Origin: Crocinitomicaceae bacterium
GTDB taxonomy: Bacteria; Bacteroidota; Bacteroidia; Flavobacteriales_D; Crocinitomicaceae
Assembly (NCBI GenBank): GCA_030830205.1
Contig: JAURNL010000118.1
Coordinates: 1-44,714 of the forward strand
DNA: 44,714 nt
Direction of reading: 5' to 3'
Position 1 is the first letter of the stretch. Every line of letters starts with the position of its first letter. Position numbers and translations under genes: made by a program. Below, piece after piece: positions 18,689-44,714 of this stretch. The notes under the pieces were generated by a model that had not been told where the DNA came from, made no database searches, and was given only the letters and a program-made list of their open reading frames with translations.

Positions 18689-19501
18689 ATGTTGGTTCGT
18701 TTATTGTTCTTATTACTCATTTTCTCAAGCCTAATCTCTAATGCACAAGTAGAGTTGCTCTCGCTTGAAGGGACCTACCAAGAAAAGAACTTAATTGTCA
18801 ATAATCCACCCATGGCCGATGGTTTTGGCTTTTGTGTCAGCAAAGTGCTTGTCAACGGAGAGATCCTTCCTGCTGTCATTCAAACATCACACTTTGAAAT
18901 CGATTTTAAACTCTTTCACCTAAAAAAAGGCGACGATGTTTTTGTCGTGCTCGAGCATGCTGTAGGCTGTGAACCTCGATTTTTAAATCCGAGCATCTTA
19001 CTTCCTAAAAGCACATTTGTCTGCACGCAAATCAATACAACTAAAGAAGGAGAACTAACCTGGACGACTAACAACGAACAGGCCATTTTAGATTTTAGTA
19101 TCGAGCAATTTAAATGGGGGCGTTGGGTAGAAGTTGGACAAGTAAAAGGAAAAGGCAGCAAGGGAACAAATCATTACCAATTCCAATTAACGCCACACTC
19201 TGGTAAAAATACAGTGAGGGTGAGTCAAACGGATAGCTCTGGCAAACCTAGGTTTTCAAAAAGCACAAGCTTTATATCAGCTACACCTGAGGTGGGGTTC
19301 AGTCCAACAAAGGTGCACACAACATTGACGTTCAAGGCTAAGGGCCAGGTAGTTAAAACCAAATATGAAATTTACGACGCTTATGGTAATCTGCTCAAAA
19401 CCGGCTTCGGAAATACCGTAGATTGCCGCAACATCGTGAGTGGAGTCTATTTTATCAATTACGATAATAAAACGGGCAAATTCATCAAAATCGACGATTA
19501 A
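18689..19501 (+). CDS. Secreted T9SS type A sorting-domain protein, function unknown
   Basis: A 270-residue exported protein. I choose the ATG at 18689 because it puts a clean signal peptide (MLVRLLFLLLIFSSLISNAQ) at the N-terminus and follows a -7 box; the upstream ATG at 18644 would add 15 residues in front of the signal and overlaps the hemJ promoter. The middle is beta-rich with several cysteines (FGFCVSK, AVGCEPRF). The last 70 residues have the form of a type A sorting domain: YEIYDAYGNLLKTG, then DCRNIVSGVYFINY and KFIKID. No enzymatic motif is visible. The stop is one base before the mce ATG, so the two genes probably share a transcript, although their functions seem unrelated. Confidence 0.85.
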   Translation: MLVRLLFLLLIFSSLISNAQVELLSLEGTYQEKNLIVNNPPMADGFGFCVSKVLVNGEILPAVIQTSHFEIDFKLFHLKKGDDVFVVLEHAVGCEPRFLNPSILLPKSTFVCTQINTTKEGELTWTTNNEQAILDFSIEQFKWGRWVEVGQVKGKGSKGTNHYQFQLTPHSGKNTVRVSQTDSSGKPRFSKSTSFISATPEVGFSPTKVHTTLTFKAKGQVVKTKYEIYDAYGNLLKTGFGNTVDCRNIVSGVYFINYDNKTGKFIKIDD

Positions 19502-31430: not shown

Positions 31431-32204
31431 GTGAAGAAACTTTATAAATACTTACTCAATACCCTACCACGTCCTTTACTCATCAGGCTGAGTTACCTTT
31501 TTAGAATCATAGCTCCCACATTGTACAAAGGAAATAATGTACACTGCCCAGTATGCGACAAATCATTTTCCAAGTTTCTGTCTTATGGTTCTGATGTAGC
31601 TCACCGTGAGAACGTTCTTTGCCCTTACGATCTTACGTTAGAACGACATCGCCTGATGTGGCTTTATCTCAAAAACCACAGTGCTTTTTTTACTCAACCA
31701 AATTTATCGGTACTACACATGGCCCCTGAGCAATGTTTTATTGACCGATTCAAGGCGCAAAAAAATTTAAACTACCTCACTGCCGATATCGTTTCCCCGA
31801 TTGCAGATATGCATTTTGATTTACATCAAATTCCTCTAGAAGACAAGCGCTTTGACGTCGTTTTTTGTAATCACGTCATGGAACACGTGCAAGACCCTAT
31901 TCAGTGCATGTCGGAATTATTTAGGGTCATGAAACCAGGCGGTTGGGCTATTATGCAAGTGCCACAAGATTTTTCTAGAGATACCACTTTTGAAGACCCT
32001 TCTATCATCACAGAAGCTGACCGGGAGAAATATTATTGGCAAAAAGATCATGTGCGCTTATTTGGGAAAGATTACCCCAATTACCTTGAAAAAGTTGGTT
32101 TTCAAACGGATATTTTCGACTTCCATTCTCATTATTCAACTGAAGAAATAAAACGCTTTCGCCTTATGAAAGATGAAGTATTCTATATTTTTAAAAAACC
32201 CTAG
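31431..32204 (+). CDS. SAM-dependent methyltransferase (Methyltransf_11 type) with N-terminal zinc-ribbon-like motif
   Basis: A 257-residue cytoplasmic class I methyltransferase. After an amphipathic N-terminus, C39-P-V-C42 and C64 (VLCPYDLTLERHRL) make a probable zinc-binding element. The SAM fold follows: LSVLHMAPEQCF in the place of motif I, LTADIVSP, motif post-I FDLHQIPLEDKRFDVVFCNHVMEH, and VMKPGGWAIMQVPQ. The substrate is unknown. The start is GTG at 31431. The stop is three bases before the MbnP-like gene, and the MbnH-like gene follows three bases after that, so the three form one operon. A role in making or using the MbnP product is possible but unproven. Confidence 0.85.
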   Translation: MKKLYKYLLNTLPRPLLIRLSYLFRIIAPTLYKGNNVHCPVCDKSFSKFLSYGSDVAHRENVLCPYDLTLERHRLMWLYLKNHSAFFTQPNLSVLHMAPEQCFIDRFKAQKNLNYLTADIVSPIADMHFDLHQIPLEDKRFDVVFCNHVMEHVQDPIQCMSELFRVMKPGGWAIMQVPQDFSRDTTFEDPSIITEADREKYYWQKDHVRLFGKDYPNYLEKVGFQTDIFDFHSHYSTEEIKRFRLMKDEVFYIFKKP

Positions 32205-32207
32205 CTC

Positions 32208-33182
32208 ATGAAAGCAATTGGTTTTATTTTGAGTTTGATGTTTGTGCTAAACGCATTTGCTCAGAAAAATATCTTTTTAAATATTGAACCAAAATTTGGC
32301 AATCAATCATTTGTATTAAATCAAACCTATATTGGTAATGACGGTGTTGCAGTAGAAATCCAAGATTTCAATTATTATTTATCAGATGTCAGTATTTTCC
32401 ATGACAACGGGCAACAAACCGATCTTTCAAACGATATTTGGCTAGTGACTCCAACCCAACACAGTCTTTATCTAGGTTATTTGGGAATTGATCAATTGGA
32501 CTCTATTTGTTTTACTATAGGTGTCCCCAAGCGCTACAATACGCAATCTGGATCCCTTGCACAGGATATTTCCACTTATCCCGAGACTCACCCTTTGAGC
32601 TTTCAAAGTCCATCAATGTATTGGGGCTGGGCTTTTGGTTACATGCACATGATTGTCGGAGGAAAAGCAGACAATAATAATAACGGCATACCTAACGCTT
32701 ATTTTGAATTGCATAACCTCGGCAACAACAACCAACAAACAGTTACCTTACCACTTATTCAAACTAACATAGGCTCACAAATTGATCTGTCGCTAAATTG
32801 TCATTTAGATCGCTGGCTCAACCAAATGCCACTTTCTAGTGTAGGTGTTTTGCATGGTGAAACCGGACTCAATCAAAATGTGATGCAAAATATTCAGATT
32901 CAGGATGTATTTACATTAGATGCAGCGGCACAAACAGTATCGCATCAAATAAACCCATTTACCTGGATGCAATCTGCCAATGAAGTCACTGTTTTTTGTG
33001 ATCAAAATGAGGTAATTGACCATTTTAAGGTATACGCCAACACAGGCCAACTTTTACTTGAAGGCGCCCCCTTTCTTTCTACAGCAATTATTCCACTTGA
33101 TCATTTCAACAGTGGCGTTTATCTCTTTCAGATTGAAACTTCAAAGGGTCCTTATCCCGCTTTTAGGATTATCAAACCATAA
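32208..33182 (+). CDS. MbnP-like copper-binding family protein with T9SS type A tail
   Basis: A 324-residue exported protein. Signal peptide MKAIGFILSLMFVLNAFAQ; an MbnP-type beta domain at about 20-240; a type A sorting domain at 260-324 (VTVFCDQNEVIDHFKVYANT, then NSGVYLFQIET and a final FRIIKP). The family hallmark is THPLSFQSPSMYWGWAFGYM at 127-146, with W139 and W141. In methanotroph MbnP, and in the related CorA, a tryptophan is oxidised to kynurenine and then binds copper(I) with histidines; candidate histidines here are H85, H128, H147, H199 and H216. The next gene encodes the matching di-haem enzyme. The T9SS tail points to delivery to the cell surface. Family recognition is firm; copper binding is inferred. 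Confidence 0.87.
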   Translation: MKAIGFILSLMFVLNAFAQKNIFLNIEPKFGNQSFVLNQTYIGNDGVAVEIQDFNYYLSDVSIFHDNGQQTDLSNDIWLVTPTQHSLYLGYLGIDQLDSICFTIGVPKRYNTQSGSLAQDISTYPETHPLSFQSPSMYWGWAFGYMHMIVGGKADNNNNGIPNAYFELHNLGNNNQQTVTLPLIQTNIGSQIDLSLNCHLDRWLNQMPLSSVGVLHGETGLNQNVMQNIQIQDVFTLDAAAQTVSHQINPFTWMQSANEVTVFCDQNEVIDHFKVYANTGQLLLEGAPFLSTAIIPLDHFNSGVYLFQIETSKGPYPAFRIIKP

Positions 33183-33185
33183 CGT

Positions 33186-34172
33186 ATGATGCGCTTTTTT
33201 TCCATAGCGCTGCTTGTGACTAGTGTTTTTTTGATGCTTAGATGTGGCCAATCTCAAGATTTGAATGCATCAGTTTTTATTCCGTCCCCAACGGATAACC
33301 CTCCAAACGCTGAGAAAATTGCACTAGGCCGAAAACTCTTTTTTGATAAACGACTCTCTCTTGATGGAACCATCTCTTGCGCTAGTTGCCACGATCCGCG
33401 CAAGGCTTTTACAGATAACCATGCTAAAAGTATAGGTATTGGCGCTCAATTAAGCGAGCGCAATGCCCCAAGTATCCTCAACGCTGCATTTTTAAAAACG
33501 GCCATGTTCGACGCACATTTAAAGAGCCTTGAATTACAGGTAATTGTGCCCATACAGGAACCGGTAGAAATGGGGCACAATATGAAAAACCTCATCAAGC
33601 AGTTACGTCAAATCCCCGAATACCAATCCGCAGCACAAACGATCTTTGGTCGAGATTTCGACGCATGGGTGCTCACTCGCAGCATTTCTGCATTTGAACG
33701 CAGCCTAATCTCCATGAACGCACCGTTTGACCAATACTTAGCTGGCCAAAAAAATGCGCTTACGCACAATCAAAAAGAGGGTTGGCGTATTTTTTCCGAA
33801 CAATTGTATTGTACAAAATGTCATCCAGCACCTTATTTCACAACTTATGAAGCAGCCAATAATGGCTTGTACAATTCTTATGAAGGAAAGGTCGATCAAG
33901 GTCGTTTTCGCATTCACCATGATTCTTCTGAAATAGGAATGTTCAAAATTCCTTCACTCAGAAATCTACCCCTAACTTACCCTTATATGCACGATGGTAG
34001 CTTAAATTCTATTTCGGAGGTGCTTTTGCATTACCAAAAAGGTGGAGCCAAGCATCCATTGCAGGATCCTCGAATTGTGGCTTTTGATCTAACATTGAAA
34101 GAAAAACAGCAGCTCATGGTTTTTTTTAATGCATTAGTAGATACTTCTTACCTGCGTAGAAACGGCTTTTAA
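33186..34172 (+). CDS. Di-haem cytochrome c peroxidase family protein, MbnH-like
   Basis: A 328-residue exported di-haem protein. Two CXXCH sites bind haem c: C65-A-S-C68-H69 and C209-T-K-C212-H213. The fold markers are ALGRKLFFDKRLSLDGTISC, SERNAPSILNAAF, and FKIPSLRNLPLTYPYMHDGS. The N-terminus ends at a possible lipoprotein cysteine (FLMLRC, C20), so it may be anchored in a membrane. Family members reduce peroxide (CcpA) or modify proteins (MauG, MbnH). Placement three bases after an MbnP-like gene favours the MbnH role: peroxide-driven oxidation of a tryptophan on MbnP. Two in-frame ATG codons (33186, 33189) are equally good starts. Maturation would need a cytochrome c assembly system that is not in this window. 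Confidence 0.9.
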   Translation: MMRFFSIALLVTSVFLMLRCGQSQDLNASVFIPSPTDNPPNAEKIALGRKLFFDKRLSLDGTISCASCHDPRKAFTDNHAKSIGIGAQLSERNAPSILNAAFLKTAMFDAHLKSLELQVIVPIQEPVEMGHNMKNLIKQLRQIPEYQSAAQTIFGRDFDAWVLTRSISAFERSLISMNAPFDQYLAGQKNALTHNQKEGWRIFSEQLYCTKCHPAPYFTTYEAANNGLYNSYEGKVDQGRFRIHHDSSEIGMFKIPSLRNLPLTYPYMHDGSLNSISEVLLHYQKGGAKHPLQDPRIVAFDLTLKEKQQLMVFFNALVDTSYLRRNGF

Positions 34173-42948: not shown

Positions 42949-44714
42949 ATGAAAATACCCCTCATTCTTAATATTCTTTTCATCACATTTTGGGCTAAAT
43001 CCCAAACCCCTTCAACATACCCGTACTTCAATAGGATTCATATTGCATCAGATTCAACTCACCCATCGTTTTATCATTTCTATGCTGGAGGACAAAGGAT
43101 TTCTGAGGATACTATTTTGTTATTAGGACATCAGTTTTGGGGCGGTAATGACCAAATTTACCAACGCACATTAGAATTTATTGATGTCCGTACAGGTGAT
43201 CTTCTTGACAAGATTATTGAGCCGAATGTAGCATTAATGGGTATTGAGAATCCACCTTTTAGCTCAGGTATCGTGGGTAATCAATTCGTTGATTTAGGAA
43301 TGCAAAACAACGTAGTAAGAACTTTTCGAAAGTACACAAACGTGAACCAAGGCATTAGTACCGAATTTGAATTGGATGCGCACCCTTCAGTAATGGATGC
43401 GGATTGGTATTCTCACTTCTCTATCAAAAAAAATGGCGACATTATTTGTTATGGTCGTACTCCCAATTCGAATGCGCTTATAAGTATCTATAATCCTAAT
43501 GGAACACTAACGTATTCAACAGATTTATCTCATATTATCCCACATATACCTACAAACCATGGGACTATTTATCATGCTCAGCAATTACTAAATAATTCCT
43601 TTTTAATTCAAATAAGGACAAATACAAATATCGCCAGTTCCGTGGGGCAATTTTTTTTATTAAAAGAAGACTTCACTTGGCAAAAACAGTTGTTTTTGTT
43701 AAACCAAAATATTACGGCAAATACATTTCAGCATTCTGATAGCAGTTTGTACTTCTTTGGCTTAAAAGATTCTTCTGTCTCCATTAGTAATGCGCAAGTA
43801 GTTAGTTATATCAAAAAATTTAATCAAGAAGGGGATCTTATCTGGGAAAACTATTATCCAATTCAAAATTTGAATCTTCAAGACCAAGCAAAACCTCATG
43901 CATCAAATATATGGGGTGGATTGGGACTGGAATCGGGTAACATTTTATTTTTCGGAAACGATATTTTCAAAGGTGCTGACGGCGATTATCAGCAAATGGA
44001 TGGTGAACAAAGTTTGCAAACACGCTTGCTCTGTATAACTCCTGATGGTGAAAAAATTTGGGAGCGGTCTTTTCATACCTCTACTAATAATTCTTCACTA
44101 GGGATAGGCTTTATCCCATTAGCAAACGATGATATTATAATATACGGTGGTATTATAGAAGATTTTTTCTTTTATGAAAAAGCCTTCGTATCCAAAGTCA
44201 ACTGCATAGGCAGAATGACTGACTTGATGCAGGATGTTCATGCTAATGAGCAAGATGGATTGGTATCAATACAAATTGAGGCCGACTCATTTTATGAGAC
44301 AACCATTGATTGGGGAGACGGTTCTACTTCGACCAACTTCCAAACTGCTTATTCTGATTCGAGCGAGTTGTTTTTGGCGCAACATCTCTATGCGCAGTCT
44401 CAGCCCTATCAAATTACGGTGAGCACAAGAGGCTGTAAAGACACCTTGGTTTATGAATTGGTTCAAGAGGCGCATGTACCTGATAACAATGCTGCTGAGT
44501 TAAGTATGTTTCCGAACCCAACTTTAGGTTTTTTCAAGATAAAAATTCCTACAAATGAAGTGCTGAATTTAGAAGTCACCGACGCATTTGGCAAATTAGT
44601 TTACCAATTTAAAGATGTTTCACTGTTCAATGGTTTTGATGTAGACCTAACTATGCAGCCTGTTGGGCAATACCATATCAGAATTACTGGCAAGGCGAGA
44701 AGTTGGGTTGGGAA
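42949..44714 (+). CDS. T9SS type A secreted protein with a PKD-like segment, partial at the right edge
   Basis: 588 codons are visible from the ATG at 42949, with no stop before the window ends. Signal peptide MKIPLILNILFITFWAKSQ. The long middle (about 25-420) reads as repeated beta-propeller-like strands with FEFID, GDIICYGRT, NILFFGND and DIIIYGGI elements, as in delta-60 or kelch-like surface proteins. A PKD-like segment follows (TTIDWGDGS, then AQHLYAQSQPYQITVST). The end is a type A sorting domain: LSMFPNPTLGFFKIKI, LEVTDAFGKLVYQF and GQYHIRITGKARSWVG. Because this domain is nearly complete, only a few residues should be missing. Function unknown; likely on the cell surface or secreted. 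Confidence 0.85.
   Translation, partial: MKIPLILNILFITFWAKSQTPSTYPYFNRIHIASDSTHPSFYHFYAGGQRISEDTILLLGHQFWGGNDQIYQRTLEFIDVRTGDLLDKIIEPNVALMGIENPPFSSGIVGNQFVDLGMQNNVVRTFRKYTNVNQGISTEFELDAHPSVMDADWYSHFSIKKNGDIICYGRTPNSNALISIYNPNGTLTYSTDLSHIIPHIPTNHGTIYHAQQLLNNSFLIQIRTNTNIASSVGQFFLLKEDFTWQKQLFLLNQNITANTFQHSDSSLYFFGLKDSSVSISNAQVVSYIKKFNQEGDLIWENYYPIQNLNLQDQAKPHASNIWGGLGLESGNILFFGNDIFKGADGDYQQMDGEQSLQTRLLCITPDGEKIWERSFHTSTNNSSLGIGFIPLANDDIIIYGGIIEDFFFYEKAFVSKVNCIGRMTDLMQDVHANEQDGLVSIQIEADSFYETTIDWGDGSTSTNFQTAYSDSSELFLAQHLYAQSQPYQITVSTRGCKDTLVYELVQEAHVPDNNAAELSMFPNPTLGFFKIKIPTNEVLNLEVTDAFGKLVYQFKDVSLFNGFDVDLTMQPVGQYHIRITGKARSWVG

Follow-up and report, generated by a model that had tools for sequence, protein, structure and literature searches.

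The question raised by this 44,714-nucleotide stretch of a Crocinitomicaceae bacterium (assembly GCA_030830205.1, contig JAURNL010000118.1; the whole stretch is called the window here) is whether two adjacent genes, one resembling the methanotroph protein MbnP and the other its di-heme partner MbnH, build a copper site by oxidation of a tryptophan and deliver it to the cell surface through the type IX secretion system (T9SS), as was proposed from a sequence-only reading. The present analysis shows that the pair is a T9SS-tailed variant of the MbnP/MbnH couple (MbnPH), with a probable site made of two histidines and a kynurenine and with an enzyme that lacks the inter-heme tryptophan. For the mechanism taken as a whole, an MbnPH pair that makes a kynurenine copper site and has it exported to the surface by the T9SS, we lean slightly in favour. 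The MbnP open reading frame (ORF) spans positions 32208-33182 (+ strand, 324 amino acids) and is followed after three bases, on the same strand, by the MbnH ORF at 33186-34172 (328 amino acids). The motif MYWGW at residues 137-141 of the first protein (M137, Y138, W139, G140, W141) and the two CXXCH motifs of the second (CASCH and CTKCH) were found as originally described. The start of 31431 first given for the pair was abandoned: the initial 774 bases belong to another gene, which encodes a methyltransferase.

The upstream protein scores 93.8 bits with the Pfam MbnP family PF20243 (cut-off 27) and 24.1 bits with the T9SS tail family TIGR04183 (cut-off 23), and the downstream protein 176 bits with PF03150 (CCP_MauG; cut-off 25.6). 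Since the two Pfam scores lie far over their cut-offs and the TIGR04183 score over its own, the pair is not a chance occurrence. AlphaFold2 models were obtained from the window proteins aligned with the proteins of the motif-found loci described below (predicted local distance difference test, pLDDT, 89 for MbnP and 85.6 for MbnH). Residues 19-245 of the MbnP model match 7l6g_E, the MbnP of Methylosinus trichosporium (VIA Z 17.3, root mean square deviation 2.7, 204 residues aligned), and ranks 1-6 of a Foldseek search with the model are all 7l6g. Residues 249-324 have the fold of T9SS C-terminal domains (RemA 8gl6_D, Z 11.8; RemZ 8gl8, 10.0; NucA 8glk_D, 9.8). The description of the protein as an MbnP with a T9SS type A tail is thus borne out by both parts of the model and by the TIGR04183 score. 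Among PDB sequences, phmmer with the window MbnP found no MbnP and the MbnP profile matched tail regions and, by chance, a few other sequences, again with no MbnP; 7l6g was reached via the Methylocystis parvus MbnP sequence and via the fold search. The features of this gene are as follows.

32208-33182, + strand: MbnP-like protein with signal-peptide-like N-terminus, MbnP domain and T9SS type A tail
32262-32942, + strand: MbnP domain, residues 19-245 (fold match to 7l6g_E)
32616-32618, + strand: M137, Met two residues ahead of the first Trp (conservation across the MbnP sets)
32622-32624, + strand: W139, first Trp of WxW, predicted kynurenine (alignment with methanotroph MbnP)
32712-32714, + strand: H169, predicted copper ligand (alignment with Methylocystis parvus MbnP)
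32799-32801 and 32814-32816, + strand: C198 and W203 (clade-invariant)
32853-32855, + strand: H216, predicted second copper ligand (column with His or Met only)
32952-33179, + strand: T9SS C-terminal domain, residues 249-324 (fold match to the RemA domain 8gl6_D)

Two sets of relatives were used to evaluate the predicted copper site. The clade set has 81 members, the window and 80 loci retrieved with two motif patterns, PSMYWGW and FE.H.LG; the invariance of Trp and His in it is partly by choice because the loci were picked by those motifs. The second set, of 86 ORFs identified by tblastn or profile search, comprises the 30 best family hits, 40 regions hand-picked from the same hit list and the loci of a phylum-wide profile search. 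Only ORFs with W-x-W and then G or A were kept in it, hence it is no test of Trp conservation; the filter dropped four regions (L149, L151, L152, L156), which were read separately afterwards, and one ORF of L184 was left out together with the true MbnP of that locus. A profile-profile alignment with proteobacterial and cyanobacterial MbnPs places M137, W139 and W141 on their M-x-W-x-W and H169 on their downstream His. The methanotroph counterpart of W139 is the first WxW Trp, and H169 pairs with H204 of the Methylocystis parvus protein. Structure prediction and alignment with MbnP, the check suggested at the outset, thus returned the fold together with the M-x-W-x-W and this His. Columns 137/139/141/169/216 read M-W-W-H-H in 80 of the 81 clade members, the remaining one being gapped at 216 (W139, W141 and H169, 81/81; H216, 80/81); loss of the modified Trp or of the copper His, set beforehand as the test of the proposal, is not what the window clade displays.

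In the WxW-selected ORFs, M137 is found in 86/86 (it is Leu in Trichormus). The MbnP ORFs of L149, L151, L152 and L156 have Thr at this position, that of L156 also lacking the second Trp, and no two-CXXCH ORF occurs on the same strand within the stretch read at these four loci. H169 is kept in 80 of the 86, with Asn in two that lack MbnH, and Phe in two and Arg in two that have it. Column 216 holds only His or Met in the 86 MbnPs: His in all 67 tailed proteins, His in 12 and Met in 7 of the 19 untailed ones. H216 is taken as a probable ligand, a column restricted to His and Met being the pattern expected of a residue that binds copper. The copper site of methanotroph MbnP reportedly consists of one His, one Met, a solvent molecule and the kynurenine (Kyn) of the first Trp (Manesis 2021); set against this site, H169 aligns, and the role of the Met may fall to M137 or may have been taken over by H216. 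CorA, for its part, is a cell-surface protein whose Cu(I) is bound by two His, a Kyn and a water (PMC3912023). Judging from the alignments, the window site is probably formed by W139 (as kynurenine), H169 and H216, which would make it CorA/MopE-like and of the two-His kind, with M137 as a further possible Met ligand.

MbnH pairing and an intact MbnP site go together. In the 86-ORF set, H169 is missing from four of the 77 MbnPs with an adjacent MbnH, while H169 or M137 is gone from six of the nine MbnPs (L135, L139, L165, L166, L181, L149, L151, L152 and L156) that have no MbnH directly behind them in the sequence read; related rows in these counts are not independent. This count leaves out AL037, where the contig ends, and the first tandem copies in L145, L146 and L150, where MbnH follows the second copy. 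L135 and L139, where the sequence read has no MbnH on the strand of the MbnP, carry Asn in place of H169.

The best NCBIfam model for the downstream enzyme among the families listed is TIGR04039 (MbnH; 249.3 bits), followed by TIGR03791 (MauG; 205.5 bits, cut-off 443.85). Its structural model gives Z values of 31.6 with MbnH 6e1c, 30.0 with MacA, 29.6 with the Nitrosomonas peroxidase 1iqc, 27.3 with MauG and 24.7 with BthA 6nx0. Because fold and overall similarity do not separate these groups firmly, it is the axial Tyr that sets the enzyme apart from peroxidases: Y283 aligns with the Tyr of 6e1c and with the Met of Geobacter CcpA 3hq9 and, like both CXXCH motifs, Q118, P122 and E128, is present in 71/71 clade enzymes. 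Membership in the MauG/MbnH group is accordingly upheld by an axial Tyr and by the absence of the CcpA-type axial Met, and the firm alignment with CcpA peroxidases that had been named as refuting did not materialize. At the N-terminus the model has a helix at residues 2-19 followed by Cys20, a Cys kept in 69/71. When the first Cys within residues 11-40 is considered, 34 of 68 enzymes have R or K immediately before it and 9 of 68 have G, A or S (the window has LMLRC). R or K being common there, it is doubtful that the Cys is lipidated, and a membrane helix that stays uncleaved is equally likely. The suggested lipobox therefore keeps its conserved Cys but not a canonical sequence around it.

33186-34172, + strand: MbnH-like di-heme enzyme (TIGR04039, PF03150, fold match to 6e1c)
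33189-33245, + strand: N-terminal helix 2-19 and Cys20 of MbnH, probable membrane anchor (helix in the model, Cys kept)
33378-33392, + strand: first CXXCH of MbnH, CASCH 65-69 (71/71 relatives)
33507-33509, + strand: F108 of MbnH, inter-heme position equivalent to MauG Trp93 (alignment with 1iqc and 6e1c)
33810-33824, + strand: second CXXCH of MbnH, CTKCH 209-213 (71/71 relatives)
34032-34034, + strand: Y283 of MbnH, second-heme axial ligand as in MbnH and MauG (alignment with 6e1c and 3hq9)

At the inter-heme position F108 is aligned with the Trp of 1iqc and 6e1c. Its spacing to Q118, P122 and E128 (10, 14 and 20 residues) equals that of MauG 93-103-107-113, where the numbers 93, 103 and 107 come from PMC6405878 and 113 from PDB structure titles. 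The Trp at this place relays electrons in MauG; it is Arg or Leu in the sister groups of the Phe/Tyr clade. In a quick tree of 64 MbnH sequences the 36 enzymes with Phe or Tyr make up one clade (Shimodaira-Hasegawa-like approximate likelihood ratio test, SH-aLRT, 99), and in a quick tree of 81 the loss of Trp is one change, on a branch with an SH-aLRT of 90 that is below the tool's star. In the 81-enzyme tree, the inter-heme residue is F (33), R (10), W (4), Y (3) or L (3) in enzymes paired with tailed MbnPs and W (26), M (1) or A (1) in those paired with untailed MbnPs. Of the 51 enzymes lacking this Trp, 49 thus have a T9SS-tailed partner, the tail labels being hand-set by length and ending. 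Repeated joint evolution of the T9SS tail and Trp loss was rejected, the tail having changed three times and the Trp having been lost once, with only three independent pairs (sign test p 1); since the Trp was lost once on the tree, the association reflects one clade. A tailed MbnP subfamily with the motif MDW[SG]WP (L144, L145, L146) has a partner MbnH with Leu at the inter-heme place; L145 and L146 carry tandem MbnP copies with a single MbnH, and H169 is Arg in L144 and in one L145 copy. Beside untailed MbnPs, the MbnH-like enzymes of L150 and L188 lack the inter-heme Trp (Met and Ala, respectively) and also the axial Tyr (Leu and Phe).

The pair is widely retained. MbnH lies directly behind MbnP, often overlapping it, in 71 of the 81 clade loci; as for the other ten, eight contigs end within 766 bases, L116 reads into MbnH across N's and L086 has none. 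Relatives whose MbnP is 54-69% identical are recorded as Crocinitomicaceae, Cryomorphaceae, Flavobacteriales and a few others, including Chryseobacterium gleum and Sphingomonadales bins, and are all metagenome-assembled. Within the family, the window MbnP is matched in 121 of 150 genomes at E 1e-3 or better, untailed MbnPs counted too. The 30 best members match PF20243 (30), TIGR04183 (24) and PF18962 (20), and 37 distant hand-labelled tailed ORFs outside these 30 match the same families 37, 30 and 26 times (E 0.01 or better in both cases). Across the phylum, the MbnP profile is matched at 1e-15 in 31 of 395 genomes, own genome and genus included. Eighteen of the phylum loci (L173-L190) were read; 11 of them (L173-L183) have MbnPs labelled tailed, from four other families (f4, f23, f25, f33), and ten of these stand beside MbnH.

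The source genome (2.02 Mb, 93% complete) encodes SprA, the T9SS part searched for (2328 bits), and contains 71 T9SS-tail matches (68 score above the cut-off). Its three MbnP genes all adjoin its three CCP_MauG genes, and only the window MbnP has a T9SS-tail match. The assembly has no match to PF05114 (the MbnB family); the stated absence of methanobactin genes thus holds for this 93% complete assembly as far as that family goes.

From these data we infer a kynurenine, a bound copper, a surface location, modification ahead of export and a role at the surface, as follows. Both proteins, judging from their N-termini, would cross the inner membrane. Anchored on the periplasmic side by its N-terminal helix, MbnH would take up two c hemes and react with peroxide; by homology to the Methylosinus pair it would convert W139 of its partner into kynurenine. 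As Phe stands in for the inter-heme Trp, electrons would have to pass from heme to heme without that residue, which is reported for BthA, where Ser occupies the position. A CorA/MopE-like Cu(I) site would then be formed by H169, H216 and the kynurenine, M137 being near in sequence. Carried by its C-terminal domain, the folded MbnP would leave through SprA and reach the cell surface or the medium; the domain and SprA themselves are observed. Modification is expected before export because MbnH should stay periplasmic while MbnP leaves. Copper holding or scavenging at the surface appears the likeliest use and is the weakest step, copper capture being the least supported part of the proposal. A wider claim is put forward tentatively and we regard it as doubtful: that the Bacteroidota MbnH clade dropped the inter-heme Trp yet still oxidises the Trp of its partner, the latter being exported whole by the T9SS as a two-His and kynurenine Cu(I) protein, which would be the CorA/MopE solution reached by another route.

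The nearest known system is the MbnP/MbnH pair of Methylosinus trichosporium OB3b (7l6g, 6e1c), which shares with the window the folds, the WxW and His alignment and the axial Tyr of MbnH; the gene order MbnP then MbnH is common to the window, methanotroph and other plasmid loci. Several results weigh against the proposed copper chemistry or against so direct a kinship. TIGR04052, the NCBIfam MbnP equivalog, reaches only 41.6 bits on the window MbnP (cut-off 140), and the enzyme misses the TIGR04039 cut-off of 362.85. Compared with methanotroph MbnP, the window protein adds the T9SS domain and lacks residues of that protein: the Cys residues invariant in proteobacterial and cyanobacterial MbnPs (a four-Cys motif figures in the 7l6g molecule name) have no counterpart among its Cys 101, 198 and 264, and the His after a conserved Asn (the 'NH' His) is Thr, or gapped in another alignment. 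H169 is replaced in six of the 86 MbnPs and four of these are still beside an MbnH. At column 216 the window has His where methanotroph-type MbnPs have Met there or nearby: the Met of the proteobacterial Cys-Met-Ser/Gly coincides with it under G-INS-i alone and is two columns off in the L-INS-i and E-INS-i alignments. The inter-heme residue, Trp in methanotroph MbnH, is Phe in 66 and Tyr in 5 of the 71 clade enzymes and Trp in none, while MauG is reported to need this Trp for bis-Fe(IV) stabilisation and for synthesis of tryptophan tryptophylquinone (PMC6405878). The source genome has only matches below the cut-off to the copper TonB family, and no copper gene was recognised among the recurring neighbours of the pair, the sequences being read by eye. 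The original interpretation is partly supported, by the folds, the axial Tyr, the conserved Trp and His, the host T9SS and the lack of an MbnB-family match, but not as a simple copy of the methanotroph pair.

Other known proteins help to place the enzyme and the site. MauG shares the fold, the axial Tyr and the residue spacing with the window MbnH; it keeps Trp93 where the window has Phe (PMC6405878), and the TIGR03791 score of the window enzyme lies below the cut-off of that model. According to PMC6405878, BthA of Burkholderia (6nx0) is a di-heme protein with an axial Tyr and no inter-heme Trp, as in the window, and still forms bis-Fe(IV); it has Ser where the window clade has Phe or Tyr and serves as a precedent only. 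Given BthA on one side and the reported need of MauG on the other, the enzyme may still oxidise Trp with Phe in this place. CorA/CorB and MopE/SACCP likewise combine a surface copper protein with a di-heme partner; their likeness to the window pair lies only in the predicted ligands (two His and Kyn), and no CorA or MopE structure is among the fold matches listed for the MbnP model. RemA, NucA and RgpB, cargo proteins of T9SS type A, have the C-terminal domain fold and family TIGR04183 in common with the window MbnP, in which the cargo is the MbnP domain. No paper treating MbnP together with T9SS or type IX secretion was found in a search that did not extend to subscription papers and preprints.

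The missing Trp also invites another explanation, that the clade MbnH turns MbnP into some other Trp-derived product or a cross-link, the surface protein having a redox role or one with another metal. It would fit an inter-heme residue that is Phe or Tyr in all 71 enzymes and Leu or Arg in related groups, and the invariance in the clade of W139, W141 and also W203; W203 and C198 occur in 81/81 clade MbnPs, against one and none, respectively, of the 19 untailed ones. The retention of the active-site residues and of the WxW/His pattern, and the bis-Fe(IV) reported for BthA with Ser, speak against this explanation, which we judge fairly unlikely. Should the site be as described, the surface protein could instead protect against copper, or store it or another metal, rather than serve uptake. 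No uptake receptor was recognised among the recurring neighbours and the TonB-copper matches in the source genome are those mentioned above, but CorA and related proteins are repressed by copper and have been proposed to acquire it (PMC3912023), and we judge storage or protection unlikely. That MbnH is simply a peroxide-removing di-heme peroxidase, adjacent to MbnP without function, we consider very unlikely: the fold scores of MacA and 1iqc come close to that of MbnH, and by sequence the best PDB match is the peroxidase 1iqc (4.3e-44), narrowly over MbnH 6e1c (2.7e-43), a further point against the copper reading, but the axial ligand is Tyr in place of Met, the pair is retained in distant loci and families, and the MbnH model scores highest among the NCBIfam models. 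If the kynurenine copper site exported by the T9SS is real, many Bacteroidota would use a single pathway, coupled to secretion, both to build a copper site post-translationally and to export it, with at least one such genome devoid of methanobactin genes. The Trp-less MbnH set would then provide a natural test of the need for an inter-heme Trp in Trp oxidation, and the choice of His or Met at column 216 a ready prediction for copper affinity.

The gene directly upstream of mbnP recurs in most clade loci.

31431-32204, + strand: S-adenosylmethionine (SAM) methyltransferase, conserved neighbour and no dedicated part (directly upstream of mbnP, on the same strand, in 76/81 loci)

It was considered as a third dedicated part of the system, but this was rejected because it is a core gene: it is matched in 144 of 150 family genomes, some weakly, including genomes without an MbnP match (e.g. 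G001, G004, G013), and its best match lies on a different contig from MbnP in, for example, G135, G120 and G075. The other recurring neighbours, whose names were read from the sequences and are not database results, are a prolyl-oligopeptidase-like protein (53), a conserved protein (52) and an aldehyde dehydrogenase (35); further out are mostly housekeeping genes. Public plasmid records label the di-heme MbnH gene 'methanobactin export MATE transporter MbnM', apparently in error (L038:2869-4029, L040:2860-4011, L042:2878-4047, L193:1460-2614, L194:1331-2602, L197:1472-2656). Some loci have the T9SS pair beside a second, untailed MbnP (L093:10001-14985, L081:3397-7102, L099:10001-13966), which has its own MbnH in L093 and L081; in L093 the T9SS pair and the second MbnP are separated by genes for an extracytoplasmic function (ECF) sigma factor and a small protein. 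On contig C89 of the source genome (L169:3537-7673) another MbnP/MbnH pair is clustered with an ECF sigma factor, a T9SS-tailed YHYH protein and a small protein lacking a Pfam match, and SprA is encoded close by. The window itself holds two further T9SS-tail matches, at 19304-19489 (25.2 bits) and 44506-44697 (29 bits).

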